The notes below the pieces were generated by a model. It was not told where the DNA came from. It did not search any database and worked only from the letters and a program-made list of their open reading frames with translations. The position numbers and the translations under genes were made by a program. Source: an uncultured bacterium (GTDB lineage: Bacteria; Verrucomicrobiota; Kiritimatiellia; CAIKKV01; CAIJXV01). From it: 64,000 nt of DNA. This document shows positions 23,558-26,228 of this stretch, one piece after another; the first letter of the stretch is position 1; every line of letters begins with the position of its first letter. The DNA is taken from contig CAIJXV010000072.1 in assembly GCA_903824675.1 (NCBI GenBank), positions 1 through 64,000 of the forward strand, written 5' to 3'.

Positions 23558-23821
23558 TCACCCGATTTTTTTCAACCACTGCGAGGCGCGGGCCTTTTTC
23601 CGATCCGCCGTGTTTTTCTTGATGATCCCCTTTTTGGCCGCCTTATCGAGGAAGGAGCAATAAGCCTTGAACGATTCAAAGGCTTTCGGTTTGTCTTTGG
23701 ATTCGAAATCAGCCAAAAACGCCCGACGTTGCGTCAACAAACTGGCTTTTTCCTTGCGGTTACGAATACGATTCTCGTCCGCCTGACGCGCACGCTTCAC
23801 CGCGCTTAAAATCTTCGGCAT
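23558..23821 (-). CDS. rpsT: 30S ribosomal protein S20
   Basis: An 87-residue, very basic protein of normal S20 length (MPKILSAVKRARQADENRIR ... KAAKKGIIKKNTADRKKAR). It binds 16S rRNA in the body of the small subunit. GAGGGA precedes the ATG, and a strong promoter lies about 50 bases upstream. It is a single-gene unit closed by the hairpin shared with lptE. Confidence 0.97.
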   Translation of the reverse strand: MPKILSAVKRARQADENRIRNRKEKASLLTQRRAFLADFESKDKPKAFESFKAYCSFLDKAAKKGIIKKNTADRKKARASQWLKKIG

Positions 23822-23870: not shown

Positions 23871-23898
23871 ATAATAGCGGGAAATGCGCTGAAGTCAA
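23871..23898 (-). promoter_or_regulatory. Strong promoter for rpsT
   Basis: On the minus strand: TTGACT (23898-23893), a 16-base spacer, and TATTAT (23876-23871). Transcription should start near 23864 and give a leader of roughly 40 bases. S20 leaders are often autoregulatory, but no specific structure was identified. Confidence 0.75.
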
Positions 23899-23922: not shown

Positions 23923-24633
23923 ATGCGGTGGGTCCGGTTCTTTTTGGGAGGGTTGCTGATCCCCTGTTGTTTCGCCGCCGTGCGGACCTTGGGGATCCTG
24001 GTCCAGGCTGCGGATCCGGCTTCGTCCTGGCTGATTTCACCCACCGGCCTCCTGATGGCGGGCGGTTTTTTTCTTTGGCTATTTTTCTATATTGCCCTTC
24101 CCCGACCCCTGCGGGCTTATGTTCTGGCCCATGAGCTGTCTCATGCGCTTTGGGGTTTATTACATGGCCGGCGGGTTTCCCAACTTCGCGTCTCCCGTCA
24201 GGGCGGCAGTGTGAGAATCGAAAACCCCAACACCTTGATTGTTTTGGCTCCCTATTTTTTTCCGTTTTATACGATCCTCGTCGTGCTGGCCTACGGAATC
24301 GGTTCTATTTTCACCGATCTGACGTCTTGGCGACCGGTCTGGTTGGCTGCGGTCGGATTGACGTGGGGTTTCCATGTCACGTTTACCGTTAGTGCCTTGT
24401 TGGATCACCAATCCGATATCCAGAAAGTCGGACACCTCTTTTCCTATACGTTCATCTTCTGGCTTAATGCCCTGGGCCTGGCCCTCTGGCTGGTCGCCGT
24501 GGGGCCCGCCAGTCTGCTCGACCTGGGCACCACCCTGGCCCGGGAAAGTTGGGTCGCCGCCCGGTTTTGCGGCGAGACCCTGGCCACGGCGGCCATCTGG
24601 ATTTACAATAAAATCGACCCCGCCTCCGTTTAA
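23923..24633 (+). CDS. M50-like (site-2-protease-type) membrane metallopeptidase
   Basis: A 236-residue membrane protein with AAGGAAA before its ATG. It has about five hydrophobic segments. The second helix runs into VLAHELSHALWG, an HExxH zinc motif at residues 70-74, and a later helix contains SALLDHQSDI, where the Asp could be the third ligand. This fits intramembrane zinc proteases. It sits directly upstream of an ECF sigma/anti-sigma pair (28-base gap), so cleavage of the single-helix anti-sigma factor is an attractive role, but unproven. Confidence 0.65.
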   Translation: MRWVRFFLGGLLIPCCFAAVRTLGILVQAADPASSWLISPTGLLMAGGFFLWLFFYIALPRPLRAYVLAHELSHALWGLLHGRRVSQLRVSRQGGSVRIENPNTLIVLAPYFFPFYTILVVLAYGIGSIFTDLTSWRPVWLAAVGLTWGFHVTFTVSALLDHQSDIQKVGHLFSYTFIFWLNALGLALWLVAVGPASLLDLGTTLARESWVAARFCGETLATAAIWIYNKIDPASV

Positions 24634-24661
24634 CATACAGGCGCACATAAGGGGATGGTCA

Positions 24662-25273
24662 GTGACTCAGGACCGCATACCGGATGTTCCGACCGATGCC
24701 GAATTGCTTGAGGCGTATCGTGCCGGCGATGGATCCTCCTTGGCGGTCTTATTTGATCGGTATCGGAAGGCCCTTTATGCCTATATCGCCCGGATGACGG
24801 AAGGACGGGGCGATGCCGATGAAATCTTCCAGGAAACCTGGTTCCGCGCGATTCGCCATCTGCCGCGCTATCGGGCCGGTCATTTTCGGGCCTGGTTGTA
24901 CCGGATCTGCCATAACCTGATGATCGATCGGGGTCGCGAGGCAAGCCGATGGACATCGTTGGACCAACCCTTGGCAGGGGATGAAGGATCGACCGCGCAG
25001 GATCGGCTGGCGGCCACCGAGCCCGACCCCGCAGCGGCGGCGGCGAGTCAGGATCTCGGCCGGATCATCGACGGGTTGTTGACCGGCTTGCCGGCCGCGC
25101 AACGGGAGGTTTTCCTGTTGCGGACGGAGGGCGAACTGCCCTTTCGCGAAATTGCCCGGCTTCAGGGGGTGTCCATCAATACCGCCCTGGCCCGGATGCA
25201 ATATGCGGTGGAAAAACTGCGGGTAGGATTGCGGACGGAAACGTCCATGAGGAGTTTTCATCATGAACTGTAA
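24662..25273 (+). CDS. ECF-type RNA polymerase sigma factor
   Basis: A 203-residue sigma-70 family protein. GTG 24662 is chosen since AAGGGGA lies just upstream; the open frame extends further but overlaps the protease gene. Region 2 (about 25-90) includes YRKALYAYIARMTEGRGDAD, then EIFQETWFRAIRHL, and region 4 (about 140-190) contains QREVFLLRTEGELPFREIA with the VSINTALARMQYA helix-turn-helix. It lacks regions 1 and 3, as ECF factors do. It overlaps the downstream anti-sigma gene by 11 bases. Confidence 0.93.
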   Translation: MTQDRIPDVPTDAELLEAYRAGDGSSLAVLFDRYRKALYAYIARMTEGRGDADEIFQETWFRAIRHLPRYRAGHFRAWLYRICHNLMIDRGREASRWTSLDQPLAGDEGSTAQDRLAATEPDPAAAAASQDLGRIIDGLLTGLPAAQREVFLLRTEGELPFREIARLQGVSINTALARMQYAVEKLRVGLRTETSMRSFHHEL

Positions 25274-25856
25274 CCGAGCCCAACAGGCGCTATTGTTGGA
25301 GACGAGCGGTGAAATCGGATCCTGGCGGGCGCATCGGCTTCATCGCCACCTGGCGGCCTGTCCCGTCTGCCGCCAGTGGCAGGCCGATTTGAGCCGTCTG
25401 TCCGCCATCGAGTTGGCCCCCCGGGCAACTCCGGAGCTGAACCCCGCCCAGTTCCCGCCCCTCGCTATTCCGCGCCGCGCGTCTCTTCCCTTAGTCGTGT
25501 TCCCGGCATGGGCCGCCGCTCTGGTGATTTTACTGGCAGGTGCGGGTTGGTGGAATTGGTCCCAATGGACGGTCCGGCAGAGCGAAATGAAGGCTATGGC
25601 CCGGATGGAGCGACTGCAGGAGTGGACCCTCCTGACCGCGCTCATGAATGGGGATGATCTGACGGGATGGGATTCGAACGACCCTGCCAACCCGGAAACG
25701 GCACGACAGGCCCTGGCCCGACAACTATTGCGACTTCAGGAAGCGGATGGGGATGAGATGATCGTGGAAGAAGGGATCATTCCATCGGCACAGCATCCAC
25801 CCACAGCTCTTCCAAGGCATAATAGCTTCGCAGGTCCGTTCGAAAAATATGGATGA
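25263..25856 (+). CDS. Membrane-anchored anti-sigma factor (zinc-finger type)
   Basis: A 197-residue protein with AGGAG upstream. Its N-terminus carries HRHLAACPVC (His29, Cys33, Cys36), the zf-HC2/ZAS motif that binds ECF sigma factors. A single membrane helix spans about residues 76-97, followed by a C-terminal domain of about 100 residues with no recognised fold. It probably holds the co-encoded sigma factor at the membrane until a signal, perhaps through the upstream protease. Its last 80 bases overlap the convergent rsfS gene. Confidence 0.85.
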   Translation: MNCNRAQQALLLETSGEIGSWRAHRLHRHLAACPVCRQWQADLSRLSAIELAPRATPELNPAQFPPLAIPRRASLPLVVFPAWAAALVILLAGAGWWNWSQWTVRQSEMKAMARMERLQEWTLLTALMNGDDLTGWDSNDPANPETARQALARQLLRLQEADGDEMIVEEGIIPSAQHPPTALPRHNSFAGPFEKYG

Positions 25857-26169
25857 CGATATCGACGTAATCGAGCACCAGCCAGCCGTCGTCGGGTAGG
25901 CCGGACTTGCGATAACAGTAATGCCCCTCGTCTTTCAAGGCGCGGATGACTTCATTCGCCAGGGCCTTTAGGTGCGGGGCGCTGCTGCCCGAAACCAGGA
26001 CCATGTAATCGGCCAGGGTGGAAAAGGCTCGTACATCGAGAACCTTCAGGTTCTCGCCTTTGCGGTCTTCCAGGGCGGCACGGGCTTGGGCGGCCAGGCG
26101 GGCGGAAGCGGGTTGGGGTGGGGGCGGCGGGGGGGCGGGGCGGCGCGCGGTTGTTTTTTTAGGGGGCAT
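25777..26169 (-). CDS. rsfS: Ribosomal silencing factor RsfS (Iojap/YbeB)
   Basis: A 130-residue protein; ATG 26169 is favoured by AAGGAG 9 bases upstream. After a basic, proline-rich N-terminal extension (residues 1-25, with a run of prolines) it shows the RsfS core: VLDVRAFSTLADYMVLVSGS, then HYCYRKSGLPDDGWLVLDYV and VDIVIHIF. It binds L14 and blocks subunit joining when nutrients are scarce. It is adjacent to nadD, as in many bacteria. The 3' end overlaps the anti-sigma gene on the other strand. Confidence 0.93.
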   Translation of the reverse strand: MPPKKTTARRPAPPPPPPQPASARLAAQARAALEDRKGENLKVLDVRAFSTLADYMVLVSGSSAPHLKALANEVIRALKDEGHYCYRKSGLPDDGWLVLDYVDIVIHIFRTDLRSYYALEELWVDAVPME

Positions 26170-26228
26170 CAGCTCTCTCCTTGGACGGCGGGAATTTACC
26201 CGGCGGCACATCCCGCCGGGTCCTTCCA

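Follow-up and report, generated by a model that had tools for sequence, protein, structure and literature searches.

A Predicted Envelope-Stress Sigma/Anti-Sigma Switch beside an Independently Inherited M50B-Like Protease Gene in an Uncultured Kiritimatiellia Genome

By sequence comparison, the conserved unit of the locus described here is an ECF sigma factor, its anti-sigma factor, and their promoter-like element, together with a predicted Spy/CpxP-like target; the putative protease encoded beside them is a conserved neighbor with a history of its own. We consider it likely that the pair is an autoregulated, class-wide envelope-stress switch that drives Spy-like periplasmic proteins, and that the protease beside it has been inherited independently and possibly cooperates with it. 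The locus lies in a window of 64,000 nucleotides (the whole stretch of DNA that was analyzed) from an uncultured bacterium. For the little-studied Kiritimatiellae and their relatives (so called by record titles), the outcome is a predicted core envelope-stress sigma factor whose promoter can be read and whose predicted Spy-like target can be tested; sequence alone should suffice to predict its regulons in many uncultured genomes. Among the papers listed by searches of the PMC open-licence literature, none had a title or abstract about this sigma factor in Kiritimatiellae or about a comparable protease–sigma–anti-sigma operon.

Results

The Sigma/Anti-Sigma Pair and Its Surroundings

The trio stands in a row on one strand, in the order of the original prediction, and the features of the locus are these:

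23558..23821, minus strand: rpsT (S20; named by reading of the sequence), flanking the ancestral-looking locus on the left
23923..24633, plus strand: M50B-like polytopic membrane protein, putative intramembrane metalloprotease (ORF, PF13398 score, residue conservation, model)
24606..24611, plus strand: candidate -35 CAATAA of the sigma/anti-sigma promoter, within the 3′ end of the protease gene
24627..24632, plus strand: candidate -10 CGTTTA (consensus CGTTAT), overlapping the protease stop codon
24662..25273, plus strand: ECF sigma factor, 203 amino acids, GTG start (Sigma70_r2 and r4_2 over cut-off; ortholog in relatives)
25263..25856, plus strand: class I-type anti-sigma factor with a three-helix N-terminal domain carrying Hx3Cx2C, one hydrophobic segment, and a C-terminal tail (profiles, model, Foldseek)
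25777..26172, minus strand: rsfS, right flank of the ancestral-looking locus (RsfS, 98.2 bits)

To the left of the trio are a yfiO-like gene, lptE, and rpsT (reverse), and to the right (reverse) rsfS and nadD, the last, like rpsT, being named by sequence reading. The anti-sigma gene starts 11 bases before the sigma gene ends, and its last 80 bases (25777–25856) overlap rsfS on the opposite strand. Between rpsT and the protease gene, a putative sigma-70-like promoter for rpsT (TTGACT, TATTAT) can be made out by eye on the minus strand at 23871–23898.

The long sigma ORF opens at 24374, and the GTG at 24662, which by eye stands behind AGGGG, is the likelier start. The product has only sigma2 and sigma4 domains, both above the Pfam cut-off (Sigma70_r2, 57.0 bits; r4_2, 37.9 bits), and its best NCBIfam match, PRK12513, reaches 158 bits, under that family's cut-off of 206. 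An ortholog is found in 34 of 39 relatives at 198–304 bits, the best other match being at 133. Two sigma homologs, G126:C1:42503-43060 and G129:C29:217611-218171, contain one and two internal TGA codons, respectively, and are either decayed genes or frame problems.

A candidate anti-sigma ORF lies directly 3′ of the sigma gene in all 33 loci fetched from relatives; its N-terminal part has no recognizable similarity in L131. The original prediction of a single-helix, zinc-finger anti-sigma factor was borne out: HRHLAACPVC fits Hx3Cx2C, and the model has three N-terminal helices (pLDDT 94–98) and then a long helix that spans the single hydrophobic segment, with zf-HC2 below its Pfam cut-off (19.1 bits; cut-off 22.2). 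Foldseek matched this model to 13 chains, each a short one from a sigma/anti-sigma complex (RsiW, RslA, or MucA entries), all with weak E-values of 1.3 or worse. By a crude count of hydropathy, 30 of 32 aligned anti-sigma factors have one hydrophobic segment and the other two have a pair; Hx3Cx2C is kept in 25 of the 32 and lost, for example, in L013, L063, and L072. Since seven of the 32 rows do without it, we rejected the idea that the zinc finger is essential to the anti-sigma factor. According to PMC7406223, Hx3Cx2C is optional, occurring in about 48% of membrane-bound class I anti-sigma factors, and groups that mix zinc and non-zinc members are known. Tails resembling PTTLQWRS recur at the C termini of the relatives' anti-sigma factors; we set aside a functional role for this conserved tail, because its coding sequence in the window (and presumably in the relatives) lies on the strand opposite the end of rsfS, and it is probably a by-product of the rsfS overlap.

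A Promoter-Like Element Conserved with the Pair

Upstream of the sigma gene, an element of the form CAATAW-N14/15-CGTTAT is conserved across the class, and in the window its copy (24606–24632) falls at the 3′ end of the protease gene. When up to three mismatches to CAATAA/CGTTAT are allowed, the element occurs 36–59 nt upstream of the sigma domain (all within 30–65 nt) in 32 of 34 genomes. Because the consensus came initially from visual inspection of these very upstream sequences, this count and the junction scores given below are partly circular. The -10 has CGT in all 32 of these sites, and the -35 has CAAT or AAAT in 31 and CACT in one. In G030 the element is present by exact pattern, which brings the total to 33 of 34; the sole candidate in G018, at 116 nt, is doubtful. 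A PWM from which each genome's own family was left out is a cleaner test, and it scored at least 14 in 31 of 34 upstream regions vs. one of 34 reverse strands, G003 and G029 dropping to 12.1 and 13.1. The sole positive coding-region segment was that of G030 (20.9), because its sigma start had been misplaced. In other classes, the element scores at least 14 upstream of the sigma gene in nine of 11 genomes (all except G114 and G141), 27–154 nt upstream, in a scan that allowed spacers of 13–16.

EcfG-type promoters have the spacing GGAAC-N16/17-CGTT, and the element described here, written as CAAT-N16/17-CGTT, shares that spacing, with AAT here where EcfG-type promoters have AAC. PMC8103513 gives AAC and CGTT, and it describes AAC in the -35 with CGT in the -10 as an early hallmark of ECF promoters that was later dropped as defining. 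The -35 of our element lacks the AAC hallmark; we still file the sigma factor as ECF because AAC/CGT is no longer counted as defining (PMC8103513).

Where the sigma gene directly follows the protease gene, the element lies at the junction between the two: it scores at least 14 in 23 of 24 adjacent loci (12.1 in L023) and starts anywhere from 25 bases before to 133 bases after the protease's last sense codon. In eight loci (L002, L003, L007, L015, L021, L022, L030, and L073), the -35 CAATAA consists of the last codon, CAA, and the stop, TAA, of the protease gene. Upstream of the protease gene itself, none of 99 regions scored 10 or more. On this ground we rejected control of the protease gene by the sigma factor, and the position of the sigma element at the protease–sigma junction led us to set aside a single three-gene operon as the main reading; transcription may also continue from the protease gene into the pair by read-through.

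Predicted Targets

The genome from which the window derives holds 19 matches to the pattern vs. four to the reversed pattern. Its top sites are those of the sigma gene (PWM score 23.0), of a gene for an EF-hand protein (22.0), and of a gene for a PF13801/LTXXQ protein (19.9; LTXXQ below cut-off); the latter two sites lie 29–62 bases before their genes, and both products start, by eye, in a signal-peptide-like manner. L147, a further site scoring 19.9, lacks a fitting gene; the remaining 15 score under 16. Over the 34 genomes with the sigma factor, the exact pattern is matched 130 times (17 of these being the sigma gene's own sites) and the reversed pattern 42 times, and over the five that lack it, 15 and 11 times. 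Sites in relatives, picked by eye, precede genes for PF13801-like, EF-hand, outer-membrane efflux, Flp-pilin-like, secreted-enzyme-like, and REP-type transposase-like products, identified mostly by sequence reading and some by Pfam. Very similar sites also recur in one order in two sets (L162, L164, L173, L174, and L179; L171 and L172), some of them before REP-type transposase-like genes.

A cleaner test of the targets takes its genes from Pfam. PF13801 has 46 matches in 30 of the 39 genomes, and 40 upstream regions were fetched. A site scoring at least 14 is present in 16 of these 40, vs. 0 of 40 reverse strands and five of 1000 shuffles; the other 24 have no site at that threshold. By origin, the sites amount to 16 of 37 regions from sigma-bearing genomes and 0 of three from sigma-lacking ones. 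Five more PF13801 genes (in G000, G004, G008, G011, and G021) carry the element by exact pattern, four of them scoring 19.8–27.9, and 20 of the 27 sigma-bearing genomes that have PF13801 possess at least one such gene with the element. PF13801 is itself present in 27 of 34 sigma-bearing vs. three of 14 sigma-lacking genomes (Fisher p = 0.0003, uncorrected for phylogeny), where six of the 14 represent one genus (g19), G002 and G007 are 82–85% complete, and nine are called sigma-lacking only at E ≤ 1e-45, with candidates in G058, G091, G135, and G158 partly scored. The protease shows the reverse, being present in all 14 sigma-lacking genomes of the class.

The Membrane Protein

The upstream gene encodes a membrane protein of 236 amino acids, and its HELSH (residues 70–74) falls within helix 63–80 of the model (mean pLDDT 93.3). 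A protein of this description directly upstream of an ECF sigma factor had been predicted, and the ORFs, the model helix, and sigma domains that exceed their cut-offs agree with that prediction. Pfam gives 24.6 bits for PF13398 (cut-off 26), 15.7 bits for PF02163 (cut-off 27.2), and no PDZ domain; because the scores fall under both Pfam M50 cut-offs, we name the protein M50B-like and not a member of M50.

Our sample of 100 protease loci combines the best 80 of 196 relatives with 20 loci from further relatives and holds 91 distinct cores; Kiritimatiellae, Pontiella, Lentisphaerae, and Verrucomicrobia make up most of the record titles among the 80. The HExxH motif is present in all 100 loci, and the invariant positions are H70, E71, H74, G95, V97, LAPY 108–111, P114, Y116, G145, F150, H151, T155, Q163, and G170. 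On conservation, H151 (100 of 100) and D165 (98 of 100) are candidate third zinc ligands; the two loci with Asn in place of D165, L016 and L069, have identical sequences. No canonical third-ligand motif of M50 site-2 proteases was seen in the protein. Foldseek with the model gave no match at E ≤ 0.001, and VIA-align gave no row above Z 4.8, with transporters at the top. SpoIVFB 28–145 aligns with model residues 57–173 (Z 4.0, rmsd 5.4, 107 aligned), a score equaled by unrelated transporters, and RseP, at Z 3.8 over residues 57–173, does no better than transporters. The three matches of a PDB sequence search with the protease alignment are all at chance level, and a profile comparison of the membrane protein with the RseP of its own genome was not significant. 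The membrane protein is M50B-like, probably active, and at most a putative member of M50.

Linkage of the Protease and Sigma Genes

The protease occurs in 72 of 145 sampled genomes of the phylum, 27 of these outside the class. We called presence in 39 relatives from alignments of 16 sigma and 58 protease rows. The sigma factor occurs in 34 of them and the protease in 25; 20 have both genes, 14 only the sigma factor, and five only the protease, and none lacks both (Fisher p = 0.14). Because some of the 39 genomes are incomplete (69–98%), single absences are less sure than the overall pattern. The two genes are adjacent in 10 of the 20 class genomes that have both and unlinked in the other 10. 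The sigma gene immediately follows the protease gene in 24 of the 100 protease loci (18 distinct), and six of these 24 (five distinct) have the trio without rpsT or rsfS as neighbors, so that the trio can persist elsewhere too. A genome of another class, G041, also has the trio.

Of the 14 sigma-only genomes, 12 have the pair next to lptE, rpsT, or rsfS, which is the site of the window without the protease, and in L019 the protease lies directly before rsfS and the sigma pair is absent; thus, each of the two occurs at the shared site without the other. In another 21 of the 100 protease loci, rpsT is close by and the sigma gene is missing, and outside the class 24 of 27 protease-bearing genomes have no sigma match at E ≤ 1e-45. 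PF02163 (RseP-like) is matched in all 39 genomes, at 155 bits or above in 38, and the best PF02163 match in the window's own genome is an RseP with two PDZ stretches.

These results divide the original prediction of a self-contained proteolytic unit. Its gene identities, the conserved HExxH with candidate ligands, and adjacency in half of the class genomes with both genes stand. Neighborhood conservation had been named as the check and separation in relatives as a refutation, and the genes do turn out to be separated (unlinked in 10 of 20 genomes, with 14 sigma-only and five protease-only). Because of this separation, the separate promoter-like element (at 23 of 24 junctions, and upstream of the protease in 0 of 99 cases), and the PDZ-bearing RseP, "self-contained" and "same operon" are unsupported.

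The protease has other neighbors elsewhere. By sequence reading, an lgt-like gene follows it in L074, L081, L086, L090, L093, L098, and L099, which belong to a branch with some rumen and gut records, and an lgt-like gene lies divergently upstream of it in L230, from another class. In Pontiella and relatives (L044, L047, L049, L067, L080, and others), it adjoins a ptsI-ptsH-hprK-like cluster on the opposite strand, again as read from the sequence.

Discussion

We suspect that the anti-sigma factor would hold the sigma factor at the membrane and that an envelope signal would lead to its proteolysis. Freed sigma factor would then use promoters of the type CAATAW-N14/15-CGTTAT to transcribe its own operon and genes for exported proteins, chiefly Spy/CpxP-like periplasmic proteins (PF13801). 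Where it is present, the M50B-like protein may serve as site-2 protease of the adjacent anti-sigma factor, and RseP would be the default candidate; it is possible that the M50B-like protein helps to cut the anti-sigma factor. The genes, their orthology, the promoter element, its association with the targets, and the independent inheritance of the protease are computational results; we infer the reading of the element by the sigma factor, its inhibition by the anti-sigma factor, the signal, and all of the proteolytic steps.

Among the closest known systems is RpoE-RseA-RseP of E. coli (details of RpoE from PMC8103513), which shares with the present one an ECF sigma factor, a membrane anti-sigma factor with an N-terminal cytoplasmic sigma-binding domain, autoregulation (predicted here), an envelope-directed output, and a PDZ-bearing RseP homolog. 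Unlike the E. coli system, ours has an extra adjacent M50B-like gene, an anti-sigma factor that often carries Hx3Cx2C (25 of 32), and a CAAT-type -35. SigW-RsiW of Bacillus subtilis likewise has a membrane anti-sigma factor with a zinc-finger class I domain, and the best PDB match of our anti-sigma model is a SigW-RsiW entry, 5wuq_D (Foldseek E 1.3, TMt 0.61; low confidence by E-value); it differs in belonging to another phylum. The promoter and targets of SigW-RsiW also differ from those described here. The predicted main targets match PF13801, and some also PF07813, which places them with the Spy/CpxP/ZraP-like LTXXQ and Metal_resist families. In E. coli, Spy and CpxP are controlled by Bae and Cpx; the control predicted here is by an ECF sigma factor. 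The membrane protein resembles the M50 site-2 proteases (RseP, SpoIVFB, and M. jannaschii S2P) in having HExxH in a membrane helix and differs from them in its scores below both Pfam M50 cut-offs, its lack of a PDZ domain, and the absence of a visible canonical third-ligand motif.

How the protease relates to the pair can be read in several ways. If the M50B-like protein acted as a site-2 protease dedicated to the anti-sigma factor next to it, with all three genes in one operon, the locus would be a compact circuit for regulated intramembrane proteolysis. The same-strand adjacency in 24 of 100 protease loci (18 distinct), in half of the class genomes with both genes, and in G041 is consistent with such a circuit, as are the six loci that keep the trio away from rpsT and rsfS, the conserved HExxH and its two candidate third ligands, and the overlap of the protease stop with the sigma promoter in several loci, which would also permit read-through. 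We nevertheless find it unlikely: 14 of the 39 genomes have only the sigma factor and five only the protease, an RseP-like protein scoring at least 155 bits is encoded in 38 of them, and the separate promoter-like element belongs to the pair, the protease gene having none. The reciprocal absence shows that gene neighborhood by itself argues weakly for a dedicated site-2 protease. A stricter form of our preferred reading, compatible with it, is that the substrate of the protease is unrelated and that the gene order yfiO-lptE-rpsT-protease-sigma-anti-rsfS-nadD is old and slowly eroding. To this we give somewhat less than an even chance. It would account for the 21 protease loci with rpsT and no sigma gene, for the flanks of the pair in 12 of 14 sigma-only genomes, for L019, and for the 24 of 27 protease-bearing genomes outside the class in which no sigma factor was matched; the trio that persists away from its rpsT/rsfS flanks in six loci (five distinct) speaks against it. 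That the trio persists in several families, with one case outside the class, is a hint of functional coupling, which our best reading covers only partly. A more sweeping proposal would make the trio an old possession of the phylum, in which a PDZ-less, sensor-free, constitutive protease is the autoregulated pair's own site-2 protease, RseP takes over after its loss, and a phylum-wide regulon with CAAT-N16/17-CGTT promoters (an AAT-type -35) retains a Spy-like core; we regard this as doubtful.

A different objection concerns the element, which might be read by another regulator and not be the promoter of this sigma factor. Its -35 is not the usual AAC, and in genomes that lack the sigma factor the exact pattern is also slightly above its reversed control (15 vs. 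11). Against this, the CGTT -10 suits an ECF promoter, the element precedes the sigma factor's own gene class-wide and in nine of 11 genomes of other classes, and it is missing from all three PF13801 upstream regions of sigma-lacking genomes, so that we think a separate regulator very improbable and retain the autoregulated sigma/anti-sigma switch.

One further gene lies close to that switch. In nine genomes (L103, L105, L107, L108, L111, L112, L113, L131, and L134), a gene with repeated "RM..LR...PE.F" motifs is found 3′ of the anti-sigma gene; its product has a signal-peptide-like start by eye, and one cut copy had no Pfam match. This gene is perhaps part of the sigma regulon.
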